Of a stretch of 37,501 nt of DNA, positions 9,989 to 18,733 are shown piece after piece (position 1 is the first letter of the stretch; each line of letters starts with the position of its first letter). Under the pieces are notes generated by a model, which did no database searches, was not told the origin of the DNA, and saw only the letters and a program-made list of their open reading frames with translations. This stretch comes from Acidobacteriota bacterium. Lineage in GTDB: Bacteria > Acidobacteriota > Vicinamibacteria > Vicinamibacterales > JAFNAJ01. The stretch is from assembly GCA_017860085.1 (NCBI GenBank), contig JAFNAJ010000001.1, forward strand, positions 1-37,501, read 5' to 3'. The position numbers were made by a program, and so were the translations under genes.

Positions 9989-11479
9989 CTAGAGGCGCTC
10001 CGTCTGGGCCAGCTCGATGGCCTTCAGCAGCGCGCGCGCCTTGTCGCACGACTCCTCGAACTCCGACGCCGGATTCGAATCGGCCACGATCCCCGCACCA
10101 GCCTGCACCAACGCCCTCCCCTCCCGCATGACCACCGTGCGGATGGCGATGCAACAGTCGAGATTGCCGGCGAAATCGAGATAGCCAACCGCCCCCGCAT
10201 AGAGGCCCCTCGGCCCCGGCTCCTGCTCTGCGATGATCTCCATCGCACGAATCTTCGGCGCGCCCGACACCGTGCCAGCCGGGAAGCACGCGACCAGGGC
10301 GTCCAGTCGATCCCGGTCCTCGTCGAGGCGCCCCTCCACCCGCGACACCAGGTGCATCACGTGCGAATAGCGCTCGAGCGCCATGAACACCGGGACGCGC
10401 ACGGTTCCGGGTTCGCACACGCGTCCCAGGTCGTTCCGACCGAGGTCGACGAGCATGACGTGCTCGGCTCGCTCCTTCTCGTCACGCTTCAATTCCTCGC
10501 CCAGCCGCAGGTCTTCCTCGTCCGACCGGCCACGGGGACGAGTGCCCGCAATGGGGTGCGTCTCGACGCGTCGGCCTTCGACGCGCACGAGCATCTCGGG
10601 CGATGACCCAACGATGGCCAACTTGCCCATGCGGACGAAGTACATGTAGGGCGACGGGTTGACGTGACGCAGGGCACGATAGACCGCAAACGGGTCAGCC
10701 GTCACCTCCGCTTCGAACCGCTGCGACAAGACGACCTGGTACACGTCGCCCCGAGCGATGAGCTCCTGCGCGGCTCGCACCGACGCTTCGAAGCGCTCGC
10801 GTGTCGTGTTCGAGTGCACCTCCGGCGCGGCAGCGGGCCCGGCCGGTGCGCGCGACAGGGCCCGATCGAGTTCGCGCTCCAGAAACGCAATCCGCGCGCA
10901 GGCGAAGTGGTACAGCGTTTCGAGATCCTCGTTCGGCGTGATGCGCGCGTTGGCGATGGCCAGGATCCGGTGCTTGACGTGATCGAACGCGAGCACCGTG
11001 TCGAAGAGCATGAACCCGGCCTCGGGACCCTCTGCCGCCTGGGCGCTGCCGTACCGCTCCCAGACCGGCCTCAGGGCCGGCTCGAACCACGGCGAGGCGT
11101 CGTACCCAAAGAAGCCCACGGCTCCGCCTGTGAAGCGCGGCAGTTCGGGAACGAAGGGCGACCGGAACTCCGACATCAGCCGGCGGAGGGCGTCGACAAA
11201 CGGCTCGGCCAACTCGGTGGTCTCTCCACTTCGTTCGAGGATGGTCCGCCCCTGCGACGCACGAAGGACGAGAAACGGGTCCTTGCCGAGAAACGAGTAT
11301 CGGGCAACCTGCTCGCCTCCTTCCACGCTCTCGAGCAGGAAGGCGTAGTCGGAGAGTTCCGCGATCTTGAGGAAGGCGGACACCGGCGTCAGCAGGTCGG
11401 CCAGGATCTCCTTGTAGACCGGGACGAACGTGCCCCGGCGGGCCAACTCCACGAACTCTTCGAAGCTGGTCTGTCTCAT
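9989..11479 (-). CDS. trpE: Anthranilate synthase component I
   Basis: Converts chorismate to anthranilate with ammonia from TrpG. The 496-residue protein carries the LLESVEGGEQVARYSF segment (residues 48-63); LLES is the tryptophan feedback-binding motif of TrpE, so allosteric Trp inhibition is expected. The chorismate-binding domain has VYQVVLSQRFE, NPSPYMYFVRM, ETHPIAGTRPRG, HVMLVDLGRNDLGRV, SHVMHLVSRVEG, FPAGTVSGAPKIRAMEII and IQAGAGIVADS-like VQAGAGIVADS. ATG at 11479 overlaps the aroDE TGA. The feedback motif and trp-operon position favour TrpE over PabB. Confidence 0.97.
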   Translation of the reverse strand: MRQTSFEEFVELARRGTFVPVYKEILADLLTPVSAFLKIAELSDYAFLLESVEGGEQVARYSFLGKDPFLVLRASQGRTILERSGETTELAEPFVDALRRLMSEFRSPFVPELPRFTGGAVGFFGYDASPWFEPALRPVWERYGSAQAAEGPEAGFMLFDTVLAFDHVKHRILAIANARITPNEDLETLYHFACARIAFLERELDRALSRAPAGPAAAPEVHSNTTRERFEASVRAAQELIARGDVYQVVLSQRFEAEVTADPFAVYRALRHVNPSPYMYFVRMGKLAIVGSSPEMLVRVEGRRVETHPIAGTRPRGRSDEEDLRLGEELKRDEKERAEHVMLVDLGRNDLGRVCEPGTVRVPVFMALERYSHVMHLVSRVEGRLDEDRDRLDALVACFPAGTVSGAPKIRAMEIIAEQEPGPRGLYAGAVGYLDFAGNLDCCIAIRTVVMREGRALVQAGAGIVADSNPASEFEESCDKARALLKAIELAQTERL

Positions 11480-12966
11480 GGTGCGTACCGCTCCTCGGGC
11501 CGGCCGTTCCTCTCGCCGTGCATGGCCGCCAGTCGCCGGGCTGCGGCCTCGCGCATGACCTCGGTCGGCGCCTGTTGTCCCGTCCACCACTCGAACTGCC
11601 GCGCCCCCTGCGCGACCAACATGTCGAGCCCGCCGATGGTGGTGCACCCGCGTCGCCGCGCCTCGGCGAGCAACGGCGTCTCCGCGGGGTGGTACGCGAG
11701 GTCGTAGACCAGGCGTCCATCGAGCGCCGTGCCTTCGACCGGGCTCGACACGCCATCGGGGCCGCTTTCGGCCGGTATGGCGTTGACCAGCAGGTCCCAC
11801 GTCCCAGGCGGGACGGGCAGAGGTCCCCACCCCGCACCGAAGGGTTCGGCCACTAGGCGGGCGCGTGTCGCGTCGCGGGCCCTCACGGTGACACGGGCTT
11901 CTCGATCGGTGAGGCCCGCCACGACGGCGCGCGCCGCACCTCCGGCTCCCACCACCGTTGCGCGGAGGCCCCCGAGCTCCAAGTCGGCCAAGGGTGCGAG
12001 GAATCCTTCGAGGTCGGTATTCGTGGACTCCCATCCCGCCAGGCTCTGAGACCACCGCAGCGTGTTCGCTGCATCGAGCCGCAACACGACGCTGTCTCGC
12101 GACACCGATGCGCGGGCTGCCGCCAGCTTGTGCGGCGCCGTCACGCTGCAGCCCTCCAGCCCCAGGACGGTTCGCGACGCGTCCACGTCCTCAAACGCCT
12201 CCGTTTCCAAAGGCAGGTAGACGGCGTCGACCTTCGTAACCGCAAATGCGGCGTTGTGCATCGCGGGCGACACAGAACGCCTGACGGATCGCCCGACCAC
12301 CCCATACACCCTCGTGCCGGGGCCCACGCTGCGAATTCGAAACTCGTCGAGGAGTCGTTCGAGCGAAAGCTGCCCGGCTGCCACGTCGCCGGCGTACGTC
12401 CACACCGACCCAAACCTCGACGGAAGGACTCGGGTCGCCACACCGGCCTCCCCCATGCCGACCAGCACGAGGCGCCCGCTGGCCCCGTGTTGGCGGCCGC
12501 ACGCGGCCAAGATCGGCAAGTCTGCCAGCCGCCCAACCAGCACGGCCATCTTGGCTCGCGCCGCGCCAGTGGCAAGCATCGCCCTCACACGTTCGGTCAG
12601 GTCGGAGGGAACGCCCCCGGACTCGTGCCACGACAGCACGATGCGGTCGGGGCACCGCGTCAGCAGGTCGTCTCGGAACGGCGCTCCCCATTCGACATCG
12701 ACGTACTCGGCACCAGCCTCGAGCGCGGCCTCCAGGATGCGGCGTCGCTCGTCCTCCCCGCCCTCGAAGCGCCCTCCATCCCAGCGAGGACGGCACGTAA
12801 CCACGGCCGGGCGCCTGCGACCTGCGAGCGCCGCGCCCGGGTCGGGCTCTTCGAGGCCATCGAGCCGCAGTTCGATCAGGTCGGCGCGGGCCGCCGCCTC
12901 GCGGTCGCGGCGCAGCTCGCCGTGACTGCCGGCCATCACGGTTGCACAGATTCGACAGTGGGTCAT
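11476..12966 (-). CDS. aroDE: Bifunctional 3-dehydroquinate dehydratase (type I) / shikimate dehydrogenase
   Basis: Catalyses shikimate-pathway steps 3 and 4 in one chain of 496 residues. Residues 1-210 are a short type I dehydroquinase with ELRLDGLE, TCRPRWDGGRFEGGE, catalytic His114 (SWHES) and Schiff-base Lys139 (AKMAVLV). Residues 218-496 are shikimate dehydrogenase: YGVVGRSVRRSVSPAMHN, SVTAPHK with Lys280, NTDLEGF with Asp318, NADP loop GAGGAARA (340-347), and IGGLDMLVAQGARQFEWWTG. I chose ATG at 12966, downstream of the attenuator hairpin. An upstream TTG in the same frame lies inside the terminator stem and is rejected. As the first structural gene after trpL it is directly under Trp attenuation. 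Similar AroD-AroE fusions are known from plants and chlamydiae. Confidence 0.94.
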   Translation of the reverse strand: MTHCRICATVMAGSHGELRRDREAAARADLIELRLDGLEEPDPGAALAGRRRPAVVTCRPRWDGGRFEGGEDERRRILEAALEAGAEYVDVEWGAPFRDDLLTRCPDRIVLSWHESGGVPSDLTERVRAMLATGAARAKMAVLVGRLADLPILAACGRQHGASGRLVLVGMGEAGVATRVLPSRFGSVWTYAGDVAAGQLSLERLLDEFRIRSVGPGTRVYGVVGRSVRRSVSPAMHNAAFAVTKVDAVYLPLETEAFEDVDASRTVLGLEGCSVTAPHKLAAARASVSRDSVVLRLDAANTLRWSQSLAGWESTNTDLEGFLAPLADLELGGLRATVVGAGGAARAVVAGLTDREARVTVRARDATRARLVAEPFGAGWGPLPVPPGTWDLLVNAIPAESGPDGVSSPVEGTALDGRLVYDLAYHPAETPLLAEARRRGCTTIGGLDMLVAQGARQFEWWTGQQAPTEVMREAAARRLAAMHGERNGRPEERYAP

Positions 12967-12984
12967 CCTGAACCCGCGAACAGC

Positions 12985-13020
12985 AAAAAGCCCCTTCAAC
13001 CGGATCGGCTGAAGGGGCTT
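12985..13020 (-). terminator. trp attenuator terminator hairpin
   Basis: On the minus strand, the arm AAGCCCCTTCAGCCG (13020-13006), an ATC loop and the arm CGGTTGAAGGGGCTT (13002-12988) form a 15-bp stem with a single G-U pair. It ends in a run of five T (12989-12985). This is a strong intrinsic terminator lying between the leader peptide stop (13047) and the aroDE start (12966), where an attenuator's 3:4 hairpin is expected. Confidence 0.93.
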
Positions 13021-13255: not shown

Positions 13256-15100
13256 GTGACAGCACGAAATCCCATGCGATTCACGGTGGCCGCAGCCTGC
13301 GCGCTCCTCCTGCTCGGCGGCACATGCACAGACTCGCAGACGGCCTTGATGCCCGTCGACGAGGTCAGGGCCGGCATGACCGGGACGGGATACACCGTCT
13401 TCAAGGGCGAGGCTCCTGAGCCATTCACCGTCCATATTCTCGGCACGCTCCACAACGTCGTTGGCCCCCGTCGGACGATGATTCTGGCGCGACTCGAGGG
13501 CGGTCCGCTCGCCACGTCGGGCGTGATCGCGGGGATGAGCGGGAGCCCCGTCTACGTGGACGGCCGGCTCGTGGGCGCCATCGCGTACTCCCTCGGCGCG
13601 TTTCCCAGGGAGCCGATTGCGGGCATCACACCGATCGCCGAAATGATCGAGGCCGCTCGCCTGTCGACGCCGCGGTCGGCGTCGCAGCGCGCGTTGCCGA
13701 CGCGCCTCGACGCCCCCGACGCGCTCGCGTCAGCGGTGCGTGCGCTCCTGCCCGGCGCCTCGCCGTTTGCGGAGCGACTGGCGGACGTCCGCGTCGCCGG
13801 CGGCGACGTCGGGCCGTACGCCTTGAGCCTCACGCCCATCGCGACGCCGGTCTCCCTGGCAGGGTTCAGCGGTGACGCGCGAGCGGTGCTGACCAGCGTG
13901 CTCGAGCAGGGGGGGTTCGTCGCCGTCGCCGGCGGCAGCGCCTCGCCGTCCCGAGCACCGTCAGGTGACCGTGCTCTCGCGCCGGGCGACGCCGTTGGTG
14001 TGTCGCTCGTGTCGGGCGACCTGTCGCTGGCGGCCACGGGCACCGTGACCCACGTGGACGGTGACCGCGTCTACGCCTTCGGCCATCCCTTTCTCAATCT
14101 CGGTCCCATCTCGTTCCCCATGACGCGGGCCGAAGTTCACGCGGTCGTCCCCAGCCTGATGTCGTCGATGAAGCTCTCGAGCGTCGGCGCCCCGATCGGC
14201 ACGGTGCGTCAGGATCGGGCCTCGACCATCGCGGGAACGCTCGGCGCCCCTCCGCCGATGGTGCCCGTGCGGATCACGCTCGAGAGCCAGGGGGCGCCGT
14301 CGCGCCGGTTCGCCTTCGAGGTCGCCAACGACCAGGTGTTCACCCCGCTCCTCGCCTTCGCCACGGTCCTTTCCGTCTTCCAGTCGTACGAACGGGAGAT
14401 GGGGTCGGCCACGTTCGCCGTGTCGGGATCAGCCCGTGTCAAGGGGCTTGGCGCAGTGTCGCTCGAGAACGTCTTCGCGGGCGATGCTGCCTCGGCGAAT
14501 GCCGCGGCCTCGGTGGCAGCTCCCCTGACCTCTCTCCTGCGCAACGAGCTGGCCGACGTCGAGATCGAGGGGATCGACCTGGTGGTGCAGTCGACCGAGC
14601 AGACCCGCACGGCGACGATCGAGCGCGTGTGGCTCGACGGCGGCGATGTCCGAGCAGGTCGAACGCTCGTTCTCAAGATCGCCACGCGATCGTACCGTGG
14701 AGAGGAGACGGTCCGTTCACTGCCCGTCCCGATTCCCGAGCACGTGAGGGGCCCGCTGACGCTGCTCGTCGCTGACGCGAGCGCGCTCCGCGAGTGGGAG
14801 CAGCACGAGATCCGACCGGCGAGCGACGTGCAGAACATCGGGCAACTGATCCGGCAGTTGAACGAAACCCGCCGCAACAACCGCCTGTACGTGCGGCTCG
14901 CCAGCCAGTCGGCTGGTGCCGTGGTCGGCGGCGAGGCGATGCCCGCGTTGCCCCCGTCCGTGCTCACGGTGCTCGAAGCCGGCGGGACGAGTGGCAGCTT
15001 CACCCCCATCAGGAGCACCATCGTCGGCGAGTGGGACCTGCCGACCCCGGATGTGATCAAGGGTTCCCGTTCGCTCAGGCTTAACGTGGAGCCCCGTTGA
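13256..15100 (+). CDS. Secreted SpoIVB/S55-like serine peptidase
   Basis: The 614-residue protein has an N-terminal signal sequence (basic n-region, then TVAAACALLLLGG). The LGGTC stretch is not a good lipobox, so secretion rather than lipid anchoring is likely. Residues 30-115 carry the S55-type block GVIAGMSGSPVYVDGRLVGA with the probable nucleophile Ser94. Residues 261-325 carry GTVTHVDGDRVYAFGHPFLN with probable His276, then GTVRQDRASTIAG. In SpoIVB, as I recall it, the GHG block comes before the GMSGSP block; here the order is reversed. I chose GTG at 13256, 4 bases after AGAAGG; ATG at 13274 in the same frame is the alternative. Substrate is unknown. The next gene encodes another secreted protein and is probably co-transcribed. 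Confidence 0.85.
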   Translation: MTARNPMRFTVAAACALLLLGGTCTDSQTALMPVDEVRAGMTGTGYTVFKGEAPEPFTVHILGTLHNVVGPRRTMILARLEGGPLATSGVIAGMSGSPVYVDGRLVGAIAYSLGAFPREPIAGITPIAEMIEAARLSTPRSASQRALPTRLDAPDALASAVRALLPGASPFAERLADVRVAGGDVGPYALSLTPIATPVSLAGFSGDARAVLTSVLEQGGFVAVAGGSASPSRAPSGDRALAPGDAVGVSLVSGDLSLAATGTVTHVDGDRVYAFGHPFLNLGPISFPMTRAEVHAVVPSLMSSMKLSSVGAPIGTVRQDRASTIAGTLGAPPPMVPVRITLESQGAPSRRFAFEVANDQVFTPLLAFATVLSVFQSYEREMGSATFAVSGSARVKGLGAVSLENVFAGDAASANAAASVAAPLTSLLRNELADVEIEGIDLVVQSTEQTRTATIERVWLDGGDVRAGRTLVLKIATRSYRGEETVRSLPVPIPEHVRGPLTLLVADASALREWEQHEIRPASDVQNIGQLIRQLNETRRNNRLYVRLASQSAGAVVGGEAMPALPPSVLTVLEAGGTSGSFTPIRSTIVGEWDLPTPDVIKGSRSLRLNVEPR

Positions 15101-15138: not shown

Positions 15139-17358
15139 ATGCCCATACGAATGACGTTCCGACTCTCGCTCGCCATGGCGGTGGGCGCCCTCGTCCCGAC
15201 GGTGTTTGCCGCGACCCCCACGTTCTGGCAAGTCTCGACGCTCGCCGAGTTCCTGAAGGGAGACACGATCGAGCACGTCGCCGTCGACAGCGACGGACGG
15301 CTGATGCTCGGCCCGCGCAACGACGTGGTCTACGCGGGCACCACGCCGGCCATCTGGACCCTCGTCGACGACGGGCAGGGTGCGTTTCTGGCTGGAACCG
15401 GCAACGACGGCCAGGTCCTCAGGATCACCCTCGATGGTCAGGCGGCCGTGGCGTTCGATGCCAGCGAGGCCCAGGTACACGCAGTCGCAGCCGGCCCCGG
15501 ACAGGCCTTCCTCGCGGGCACGGCCCCGGACGGCAAGCTGTATCGTGTGGCGCCCGACGGGGCATCGTCGGTGCTCCACGATCCGCAGGACAAGTACATC
15601 TGGGCGGTCGTCGTGGCGCCCGACGGCACCGCCTATGTGGGCACCGGTGAGAAGGCCGCCGTCTACCGTGTGTCTCCCGCAGGCCAGGCCGCCGTGCTCT
15701 ACCGGCCAAAGGCGGCCAACGTGACCGCGTTGGCGCTCGATCCGCAAGGCAACCTGCTCGTCGGCACCGAGTCGCCCGGGCAAGTCGTTCGAGTCGACAG
15801 CCAAGGCCGGCCCTTCGTGCTGCTCGATTCGCCCTTCCGAGAGATCCACAGCTTGCGCATCGATGCACGCGGCCATGTGTACGCCGTCGCGCTCGATGGC
15901 GCCGAGGACGAAGCCAAGGCTGCGCCGGCTCCGGCTTCAAAGGCGCCCCCAGCCACTCCCGTACCAGTCGTGTCGACGCAAATCACGGTGACGTCGGTCG
16001 CGGGCGTCGGCGTCGACGCCGGCGTCGCCACCCCGTCGCCTTCCGCAGACCAGGCCGGTGGCAAACCGAAGGGTGCGGTGTACCGCATTGCCCCTGACGG
16101 CTTGTGGGACACTGTCTGGCAGTCGAACGACGACCTGCCCTACGACGCCTTCCCCCAAGGAGACGGCTCGCTGCTCATCGGCACGGGGGCCAAGGGCAAG
16201 ATCTTCCAAGTCATGGAGGGTTCGGCACGGGCGACGCTCGTCGCCCGCGCGTCGGCCCAGCAAGTCACCAGATTCGCGCGCGTCGCTGGCGGGGACGTGT
16301 GCTACGCCGTCTCCAACCCCGGCAAGGTGTTCCGGCTGTCGTCCAGTGTGGCGGCCCGCGGCGAATACCAATCTGACGTCCGCGATGCCGGCACCGTTGC
16401 GACCTGGGGCGCGGTGCGGTGGCACGGACGCACGCCACCGGGCACAGCGATCGAGATCTCGACGCGCTCGGGCAACACGAAACGCCCCGACGACAACTGG
16501 AGCGACTGGTCTGTTGCCTACGCGGACGCCGCGGGCTCGCAGATTGCGAGCCCCAAGGCACGCTACCTGCAATGGCGCGCCGTGCTCACTGGAAAAGGTG
16601 TCACGCCTGTGCTGACGTCGGTCACCGCGGCGTACCTGCCGCGCAACGCAAGACCGACCGTCGAAGCCATCACGGTCCACCCGCCAGGCACGGTGTTCTA
16701 CAAGCCCTATCCCACAGGTGAACAGGATCTTGCGGGATTCGACAGCGGGACATCCGACGGCTACCAGCCCGGTCGGCTCGGGGCAGCGGCTTCGTCGTCG
16801 ACGCCGCCGGCCCTCGGCCGCCGCACCTATGAGAAGGGTCTCCAGGCCTTTGCCTGGAAGGCCACCGACGAAGGGGACGACCGGCTGCTGTTCGACGTGT
16901 TCTACCGTCACGAGGGCGACGCGACGTGGCGGCCCTTGCGTCGCGGTCTCTGGGACCCGCTCTTCACGTGGGACACCACCTCGGTGCCCGACGGCACCTA
17001 CACGATCAAGGTGGTCGCCTCCGACGCACCGTCGAACGCCCCAGGGGCAGCGCTCGTCGGCGAATTGGAGAGCGTGGCGTTCGAGATCGACAACACGTCA
17101 CCGATCATCGAGCGCGGGGCGGCCACACCGTCCGGGGATCGGACCGTTGTCCGCTTCGTCGTGCGTGATGGGCATTCGGCCGTGCAGCGCGTCGAGTACT
17201 CGCTCGACGCGAATCGCTGGCGCCTGGTCTATCCGGTTGACGGCATTGCCGATTCGCGGGAAGAGGCCTTCGAGGTCGTGCTCGAAGGCGTGGCCAGCGC
17301 CATCGTGCGCGCGTCGGATTCGCTCGGGAACATCGCGACCGAGGTCGTTGGTCGCTGA
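15139..17358 (+). CDS. Secreted beta-propeller-like protein with C-terminal beta-sandwich regions
   Basis: The 739-residue protein starts 38 bases after the S55 gene with a signal peptide (FRLSLAMAVGALVPTVFA). Residues about 40-390 contain repeated blade-like units: AFLAGTGNDGQVLRI, AFLAGTAPDGKLYRV, AYVGTGEKAAVYRVS, LLVGTESPGQVVRV and LLIGTGAKGKIFQV, resembling SMP-30/NHL or WD-type propellers. They are interrupted by an Ala/Pro-rich linker near residues 265-315. The second half (WSDWSVAYADAAGS; VPDGTYTIKVVASD) looks like Ig-like or carbohydrate-binding beta-sandwiches. No catalytic motif is visible. The linkage to the S55 peptidase suggests they act together outside the cytoplasm, perhaps as substrate or scaffold (inference). 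The first Met of the signal (15139) was preferred over a Met 4 codons later. Confidence 0.75.
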   Translation: MPIRMTFRLSLAMAVGALVPTVFAATPTFWQVSTLAEFLKGDTIEHVAVDSDGRLMLGPRNDVVYAGTTPAIWTLVDDGQGAFLAGTGNDGQVLRITLDGQAAVAFDASEAQVHAVAAGPGQAFLAGTAPDGKLYRVAPDGASSVLHDPQDKYIWAVVVAPDGTAYVGTGEKAAVYRVSPAGQAAVLYRPKAANVTALALDPQGNLLVGTESPGQVVRVDSQGRPFVLLDSPFREIHSLRIDARGHVYAVALDGAEDEAKAAPAPASKAPPATPVPVVSTQITVTSVAGVGVDAGVATPSPSADQAGGKPKGAVYRIAPDGLWDTVWQSNDDLPYDAFPQGDGSLLIGTGAKGKIFQVMEGSARATLVARASAQQVTRFARVAGGDVCYAVSNPGKVFRLSSSVAARGEYQSDVRDAGTVATWGAVRWHGRTPPGTAIEISTRSGNTKRPDDNWSDWSVAYADAAGSQIASPKARYLQWRAVLTGKGVTPVLTSVTAAYLPRNARPTVEAITVHPPGTVFYKPYPTGEQDLAGFDSGTSDGYQPGRLGAAASSSTPPALGRRTYEKGLQAFAWKATDEGDDRLLFDVFYRHEGDATWRPLRRGLWDPLFTWDTTSVPDGTYTIKVVASDAPSNAPGAALVGELESVAFEIDNTSPIIERGAATPSGDRTVVRFVVRDGHSAVQRVEYSLDANRWRLVYPVDGIADSREEAFEVVLEGVASAIVRASDSLGNIATEVVGR

Positions 17359-17368
17359 GGACGTCAGC
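17354..17368. terminator. Short inverted repeat between converging genes
   Basis: GCTGA (17354-17358), five bases, then TCAGC (17364-17368) contain the two stop codons of the converging beta-propeller and anti-sigma genes, which are only 5 bases apart. The symmetry could form a 5-bp hairpin on either transcript but lacks a T-run, so a terminator role is weak. Confidence 0.2.
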
Positions 17369-18119
17369 TGATCGTCTTGCCGCGGACCGTGGTGTGGGTC
17401 ACCACCCACACCATGTTCACGGCCACCGGTGCGCCGGCGAACGAAGCAGGGCTGAAGCGCGCCTCCGACACGGCGCGCACGAGACGCGACACGGTCTCGT
17501 GGTCGCCCGCCGAGGCCCTCAGCACAGACGGTCGTACCACCAGCCCCTCTCTCGTGACGACGGCGGCCAATGCAAAGACCACGTCGTCGTCGGTCGAAGA
17601 CGACTCCTCGACCAGGGCCGATACCGCCGGCTCGCGCACCACGCGGGGCGGGACCATGCGCTCGTCGATGCTCACCGGGTAGAGGTTCGAACCCGGCGCT
17701 GCCAGCGCGGCCAGGATGCCGGCCAAGGAGTCTGCCCGCACCTGCGGCGCCAAGTAGCCGACGCCGACGAGCAGCGCAGCGCACAGGCCCGTTGCGGCGG
17801 TCGCGGCCAGCGCAGCCCACACCAGGTGCATGTCCTCGAACGCCCGACTCATTCGCACTCTGACCGACTGCTCGCGTTCGGCTTCTGCCCGGGCCACGGT
17901 GGCCTGGCCGGCGCGTGCGATCTCGTCGAGCGGCAGTGGCAGGCCCGTCGCGGCCCGCCTGATCACCTGCCCCAGTCGCTGCAGCCGTTCCACCTCCCGA
18001 GCGCACCCCTTGCAGCGCTCGAGGTGCGTCTCAACGGCACACATCTCCTGGACCGTGAGTTCGCGGTCGCAGAACCCGGACAGGTGGCGTCTGAGGCGGG
18101 CGCAGGTCAGGCGCGTCAT
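17364..18119 (-). CDS. Membrane anti-sigma factor: zinc-finger (zf-HC2) plus TonB-like C-terminal domain
   Basis: The 251-residue protein has an N-terminal anti-sigma zinc finger with ETHLERCKGC (His32, Cys36, Cys39). A single transmembrane helix follows at about residues 98-124 (LVWAALAATAATGLCAALLVG). The C-terminal part, VVTREGLVVRPSVLRAS, LVRAVSEARFSPASFAG and PVAVNMVWVV, has the pattern of a TonB C-terminal domain (dG-x-V; W/F-x-P-A; G-x-P-V). The finger would hold the sigma factor at the inner membrane and the TonB-like domain would face the periplasm. The ATG at 18119 overlaps the sigma-factor TGA by four bases, the normal arrangement of a cognate pair. The signal sensed is unknown. 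Confidence 0.82.
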   Translation of the reverse strand: MTRLTCARLRRHLSGFCDRELTVQEMCAVETHLERCKGCAREVERLQRLGQVIRRAATGLPLPLDEIARAGQATVARAEAEREQSVRVRMSRAFEDMHLVWAALAATAATGLCAALLVGVGYLAPQVRADSLAGILAALAAPGSNLYPVSIDERMVPPRVVREPAVSALVEESSSTDDDVVFALAAVVTREGLVVRPSVLRASAGDHETVSRLVRAVSEARFSPASFAGAPVAVNMVWVVTHTTVRGKTIS

Positions 18120-18733
18120 AGGTCCACCAGTTGGGCGCGCAAGGCTTCCCGCGCGCGAGCCAGGCGAGACTTCACCGTTCCCCCCGCCACGCCCAGTGAA
18201 AACGCGATCTCCTCATAGCTCAGACCATCGATCTCGCGAAGCACGATCGCCGTGCGCTGCTCGAACGGCAGCTGCTCGAGCGCCCGCCAGACGCGGTCGG
18301 CAGTCTCCTTCTGGTCGAGAAGCCTGTCTGGGGCCGGACCGGCGTCTCGAAACGCCCGTTCACCGCGTGCGCGAACGTGCTCGTCGAGCGACACCTGGTC
18401 GCCCTGCCGGCGACGACGCCACCAGCGCTGCCGGTTCCACGCCTGGTTGACGACGATCCGATAAATCCAGGTCCGGAGACTCGACTGGCCCTTGAAGGTG
18501 CCGAGTGTCCGGAAGACGCGCAGGAAGACCTCCTGCGATACGTCGAGCGCCTCGTTGTGATCGCCCAGCAGGTGAAGCGCCAGTTGATACACCATGCGCT
18601 GGTGCTGCTCGACGAGATCGCTGCACGCCACCTCGTCGCCGGCTGAACAGCGGGCGATGAGTGCGGCCTCGCCGGTCTCGACCCCGGTCCAGGCAAGTGC
18701 GGCTGCGGGTTTGGCGGACATCCTTTCGGCCAC
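18116..18733 (-). CDS. ECF-type RNA polymerase sigma-70 factor
   Basis: The 205-residue protein has sigma-2 (SDLVEQHQRMVYQLALHLLGD, ALDVSQEVFLRVFRTLGTF, SLRTWIYRIVVNQAWN) and sigma-4 (ALEQLPFEQRTAIVLREI, GLSYEEIAFSLGVAGGTVKSR) with no sigma-3, as in the ECF/RpoE class. GTG at 18733 has GGAGAG about 7 bases upstream; the ATG four codons later has AGG directly adjacent and is less likely. It overlaps its anti-sigma gene. A weak TTGCGG-N18-TATTCT lies upstream (18779-18750). I could not identify a convincing ECF autoregulatory promoter. Confidence 0.93.
   Translation of the reverse strand: MAERMSAKPAAALAWTGVETGEAALIARCSAGDEVACSDLVEQHQRMVYQLALHLLGDHNEALDVSQEVFLRVFRTLGTFKGQSSLRTWIYRIVVNQAWNRQRWWRRRRQGDQVSLDEHVRARGERAFRDAGPAPDRLLDQKETADRVWRALEQLPFEQRTAIVLREIDGLSYEEIAFSLGVAGGTVKSRLARAREALRAQLVDL

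Follow-up and report, generated by a model that had tools for sequence, protein, structure and literature searches.

A secreted SpoIVB-like serine protease of Acidobacteriota whose catalytic barrels appear to be swapped

The question raised by this locus is how a protein that carries both sequence blocks of an S55 peptidase, namely a nucleophile block (GMSGSP) and a base block (FGHP), comes to present them in the reverse of the order found in SpoIVB. The window analysed here, that is, the whole stretch of 37,501 nucleotides from contig JAFNAJ010000001.1 of an Acidobacteriota assembly (GCA_017860085.1), had been the subject of a preliminary description, according to which the Ser block precedes the His block in this protein and follows it in SpoIVB. 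Both statements were borne out: Ser89, within GMSGSP at residues 87-92, lies ahead of His271, within FGHP at residues 269-272, and in SpoIVB His236 comes before Ser378 (PMC12502668). The residues originally called Ser94 and His276 had been numbered from near an in-frame GTG at 13256, upstream of the ATG at 13274, and are the same as Ser89 and His271 of the 608-residue protein. This ATG appears to be the best start for the gene and would open a signal peptide, and the frame closes with a stop codon at 15098-15100 on the forward strand. Among 75 full-length relatives (35-55% identity), the frame is conserved from about residue 25 to the C-terminus, and it is a real one. The signal peptide was called by inspecting the hydrophobic N-terminus of the window protein and of about 40 relatives; these signal peptides, together with the acidobacterial host, fit the earlier suggestion of a secreted protein with no part in sporulation.

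Table 1. Features of the protease locus, with positions in the window and residues of the 608-residue protein.
Feature	Position	Strand	Basis or remark
S55 protease gene with proposed barrel swap, 608 aa	13274..15100	+	stop included; translation, 208-member aligned family, PF05580 above cut-off
Predicted signal peptide, about residues 1-23, type I-like in relatives	13274..13342	+	hydrophobic N-terminus
Ser barrel, residues 24-130	13343..13663	+	profile match to 9lnf, hhalign E 9e-13, predicted strands
GMSGSP motif, residues 87-92; Ser89 is the proposed nucleophile, equivalent to SpoIVB Ser378	13532..13549	+	
Inter-barrel linker, residues 131-225, about 95 residues, partly low confidence	13664..13948	+	model; no SpoIVB match
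His barrel, residues 226-346	13949..14311	+	fragment fold (top PDB match 9lnf, prob 1.00), permuted hhalign
FGHP motif, residues 269-272; His271 is the proposed general base, equivalent to SpoIVB His236	14078..14089	+	208/208 relatives, hhalign
Asp314, proposed third triad member, aligned to SpoIVB Asn290	14213..14215	+	207/208 relatives, hhalign
C-terminal region, residues 347-608, mixed alpha/beta, confident prediction	14312..15097	+	model
Secreted beta-propeller protein gene, putative downstream partner	15139..17358	+	Reg_prop match; mechanical ORF from TTG 15097
zf-HC2 anti-sigma and ECF sigma gene pair, convergent to the protease-propeller pair	17364-18733	-	
aroDE, fused 3-dehydroquinate dehydratase/shikimate dehydrogenase	11479-12999	-	
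Anthranilate synthase component I gene, beside aroDE	9992-12055	-	

The link to SpoIVB (MEROPS S55, PF05580, TIGR02860; Bacillus subtilis, PDB 9LNF, PMC12502668) came from the Ser half. A search with PF05580, one of the checks proposed in the preliminary description, matched residues 29-106 to profile positions 116-193 of 210, with 30.2 bits over a cut-off of 25; the match is limited to the Ser half, and the window protein gave no full-length collinear match with the His block before the Ser block. When a profile of residues 24-130, built from 48 relatives, was compared with the PDB, SpoIVB (9lnf) was recovered at E 6.2e-9, followed by trypsins around the same motif. In hhalign this half likewise aligned to the C-terminal barrel of SpoIVB (E-value in Table 1), in agreement with the claim that the sequences flanking GMSGSP are SpoIVB-like too. 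The homology extends from about Glu319, in the inter-barrel linker of SpoIVB, to the SpoIVB C-terminal helix, and therefore the break falls at the barrel boundary. The NCBIfam equivalog model for SpoIVB, TIGR02860, yielded 29.4 bits, far below its cut-off of 305, so the protein is not SpoIVB proper. Moreover, SpoIVB has a PDZ domain N-terminal to the protease, whereas Pfam detected none in the window protein at E<=1, and the acidobacterial protease, unlike SpoIVB, bears an extra C-terminal region of 260 residues, in which Pfam found no known domain and which is not a second Ser barrel. Neither this region nor the middle segment of the protein matched SpoIVB in hhalign.

A stretch of the protein had been likened to the start of SpoIVB. 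The profile of the His half matched no PDB sequence, and PF05580 gave weak matches to His-half fragments in only 3 of 48 members at E<1, on which no weight was placed. Profile-profile comparison by hhalign against four SpoIVB sequences placed the His half, weakly (P 0.015), at the correct location in SpoIVB, with two collinear motifs: GTVT...YAFGH against GTMT...YGALGH, and IGTVRQDRASTIAGTLG against the SpoIVB segment IGDINRNSPFGIFGTL. When the His half was folded alone with AlphaFold2 (pLDDT 86) and compared by Foldseek with 350,542 PDB chains, the best match was SpoIVB 9lnf (prob 1.00, E 0.064), ahead of Spl, Esp, HtrA1, DegS, trypsin and thrombin, among other barrels. A comparison with SpoIVB that allows for permutation, as the preliminary description had advised, was made against a canonical SpoIVB profile that is thin, with four sequences (9LNF and three on 'plasmid' records). 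A profile re-ordered as His half plus Ser half aligned end-to-end over 173 columns, with a score of 98.8, whereas in the native order the Ser part alone aligned (87.9). None of 300 shuffles of the His columns reached 98.8, the maximum being 91.8, and segments of the C-terminal region put in place of the His half scored 90.1. Taking the permuted alignment and the fold match together, the His barrel is homologous to the N-terminal barrel of SpoIVB, a relationship that is weak by sequence alone. The full-length model (pLDDT 87, pTM 0.85) retrieved nothing significant from the PDB with Foldseek, a result not counted as evidence because it is what a permuted chain is expected to give.

The explanation that we favour, with a probability of about 0.78, is that the gene encodes a periplasmic or secreted serine protease, probably an active one, in whose catalytic domain the SpoIVB/S55 chymotrypsin fold has undergone a natural circular permutation (a barrel swap). 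The chain would run from the nucleophile barrel through a linker of about 95 residues to the barrel bearing the base and the acid; the two barrels would then pack into one active site, with Ser89, His271 and Asp314 as the triad, and the enzyme would cleave proteins. As to its origin, circular permutation or duplication with loss had been put forward. The profile and fold comparisons support the former, and the latter is a possible route to the barrel swap, of which no remnant was found on comparing the Ser half with the C-terminal region and the His half with the linker. Either circular permutation or domain shuffling may lie at its origin.

The reversed order extends well beyond this genome. 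Of 297 Acidobacteriota genomes sampled, 270 contain a PF05580 match (E<=0.001), usually a single one and for the most part in a frame near 600 residues long; all the matches listed across the 297 genomes are confined to the Ser half (roughly profile positions 102-203), and no canonical-order S55 protein was seen among these genomes. The Ser block lies N-terminal of the His block in every one of the 208 aligned relatives, and normal SpoIVB order, which the preliminary description had regarded as decisive against its proposal, appeared in none. The column of Ser89 holds Ser in 207 of the 207 relatives covering it, that of His271 holds His in 208 of 208 and that of Asp314 holds Asp in 207 of 208, with all three residues present together in 206 of 208; since Ser89 and His271 are invariant and the Ser block is always N-terminal, the block order is not due to chance. 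A simple regular expression left ten sequences unclassified, owing to residue changes next to the motifs, to a spurious additional match or to truncation; all ten nonetheless keep the His when aligned. Public genomes, when scanned, gave 80 loci, which belong almost without exception to MAGs or genomes of Acidobacteriota; no relatives were found in viral contigs and plasmids, in a search of which one query, an approximate Negativicutes motif, carries little weight. One contig titled Acidimicrobiia (VFYY01000175.1) contains a copy of acidobacterial type with 51% identity, and it is probably a mislabelled or mis-binned MAG.

The proposed third catalytic residue lies in the His barrel. In the full-length model, the Ser barrel is composed of three strands, Ser89, three more strands and a C-terminal helix, a strand order like that of the chymotrypsin C-terminal barrel; in both the full-length and the fragment models, the His barrel shows three strands, His271, two strands, Asp314 and a sixth strand. 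From what is known of the fold, this predicted order around His and Ser fits the two chymotrypsin barrels, the N-terminal one of which carries His57 and Asp102. The spacing from His271 to Asp314 is 43 residues, that from His57 to Asp102 is 45, and by the same fold-based comparison Asp314 is at the position of chymotrypsin Asp102. In the four SpoIVB sequences, the column of Asp314 contains N, N, S and N, the residue in SpoIVB being Asn290. On the basis of this alignment, of the near-invariance of Ser, His and Asp and of the chymotrypsin-like strand order, a triad Ser89-His271-Asp314, built from the reversed barrels, is proposed.

This proposal bears on the third-residue question in SpoIVB, which lacks a canonical third catalytic residue and whose Asp363 is about 24 A from His236 (PMC12502668), because Asp363 is also not conserved in the acidobacterial family: its column in the relatives holds E, S, D or other residues. 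Nor is Thr393, the candidate residue of the SpoIVB crystallographers (PMC12502668), kept in the relatives, which have Ser or Ala there. The mostly Asn column of SpoIVB, as opposed to the near-invariant Asp314 of the acidobacterial family, fits the crystallographers' missing canonical third residue (PMC12502668). As a separate observation, all four SpoIVB sequences have an Asp just ahead of the GTxT strand (Asp213 in 9LNF), as do 206 of 208 relatives (Asp249); the two align within one residue, and this Asp may be regarded as another candidate functional acid in S55. Mean-field DCA of 208 sequences (Meff 160) was noisy, and the lack of signal at the Ser89/His271 patch is unremarkable because these residues are invariant. 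The strongest inter-barrel coevolution patch connects residues 124-128, in the helix after the Ser barrel, with residues 314-319, around Asp314; it may reflect direct packing of the barrels, a plausible but weak reading that would hold for intra- and inter-chain contacts alike.

The gene neighbourhood was compared as well. The propeller gene lies downstream of the protease gene, on the same strand, at 64 of 72 close loci, and likewise at 18 of 20 loci taken one per family from 20 Acidobacteriota families, being the sole consistently conserved neighbour across these divergent families. Family f29 supplies one of the two loci lacking it, and the gene is also missing at several closer Pyrinomonadaceae/Blastocatellia loci. 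From this neighbourhood we infer a partnership of the propeller protein with the protease, be it as adaptor, regulator or substrate. In SpoIVB, regulation or the presentation of substrates falls to the PDZ domain, and here the linker and the propeller protein would take its place. About half of the close loci have the anti-sigma/ECF sigma pair, whereas aroDE and the trp genes, upstream of and divergent from the protease gene, are conserved in close relatives only.

The same data have been read in other ways. If the GMSGSP barrel alone were S55, and the FGHP region an unrelated beta-barrel with a look-alike motif, there would be no permutation at all, and the weak sequence-only support for His-half homology leaves some room for this; however, 9lnf is the top fold match of that half, two separate motifs are collinear with SpoIVB and no shuffle attained the permuted score, and this reading, already disfavoured, is regarded as very improbable. 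A different possibility, which we consider unlikely, is that Ser89 pairs with His271 of another molecule, in a domain-swapped dimer or oligomer whose assembly makes the reversed order tolerable. The long linker, with its low-confidence parts, permits either connection, but the pTM of the monomer model suggests a defined arrangement within one chain, and the coevolution patch may represent direct packing, even if it does not separate intra- from inter-chain contacts. Inactive homologues usually lose their catalytic residues, whereas nearly all the relatives here keep the three of them, and this makes it doubtful that the protein is a catalytically dead S55 relative turned into a binding or structural module, for instance a scaffold for the beta-propeller protein; on the other side stand a gene that travels with the propeller gene, a protein for which no activity has been reported and the unusual active site of SpoIVB itself (PMC12502668).

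Compatible with the barrel swap, yet assigned a low likelihood, is a role as a site-1 protease of regulated intramembrane proteolysis, with the nearby anti-sigma factor (17364-18119 in the window) as its substrate. SpoIVB and DegS are site-1-type proteases in their own pathways, and the convergent zf-HC2 anti-sigma and ECF sigma genes beyond the propeller gene recur in 28 of 57 and 33 of 56 close loci with enough flank, respectively. However, the anti-sigma gene runs on the other strand, and conservation as a neighbour throughout the phylum is seen for the propeller gene alone.

Returning to the barrel-swapped protease, its common ground with SpoIVB comprises the GMSGSP nucleophile block with its flanks, the GTxT...GH base block, the IGxIxxxxxxxIxGxL strand, the predicted two-barrel PA-clan architecture and secretion, and the two differ in barrel order and in the tie to sporulation, which the acidobacterial protein lacks. 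HtrA, DegS, DegP and the staphylococcal Spl proteases (PA clan, S1) have in common with it the expected Ser-His-Asp triad and the fold of the His half, which matches HtrA1, DegS and Spl, presumably at their N-terminal barrel, but they show the canonical order, a GNSGGP-type motif and, in HtrA, C-terminal PDZ domains. Few enzyme folds have been studied as thoroughly as that of chymotrypsin, and we know of no natural circular permutant of it; none was found in the open-access library searched, and the rearranged SpoIVB-like protease appears to be undescribed. S55 peptidases have been widely detected in acidobacteria, in a report that, where it deals with them, counts them without comment on their architecture (PMC8841776). 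Circularly permuted papain-like cysteine proteases, such as PPPDE and LupA, offer a precedent for a naturally permuted protease (PMC10318531), although their fold and mechanism are unrelated to those considered here.

If true, a permuted fold fixed in about 90% of the sampled Acidobacteriota would mean that the barrels can be re-threaded with the catalytic residues kept, and the protease and the propeller would form a secreted system of two genes, as yet unstudied, in a phylum that is abundant and poorly understood. The odds seem to us about even for the broader proposal of a catalytically active natural permutant, mostly single-copy and phylum-wide in diderms, with a canonical Ser-His-Asp triad absent from SpoIVB, a dedicated secreted beta-propeller partner and a place in non-sporulation envelope biology, possibly shared with diderm Bacillota. 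In the latter, Vpar_0521 of Veillonella parvula, a non-sporulating diderm, is a protein of the outer-membrane fraction that, like the acidobacterial protease, is secreted and has an N-terminal SpoIVB domain, and it differs in its host phylum and in an annotated C-terminal DUF1090 (PMC5491611); compared by description alone, it may be a relative from the same permuted family.
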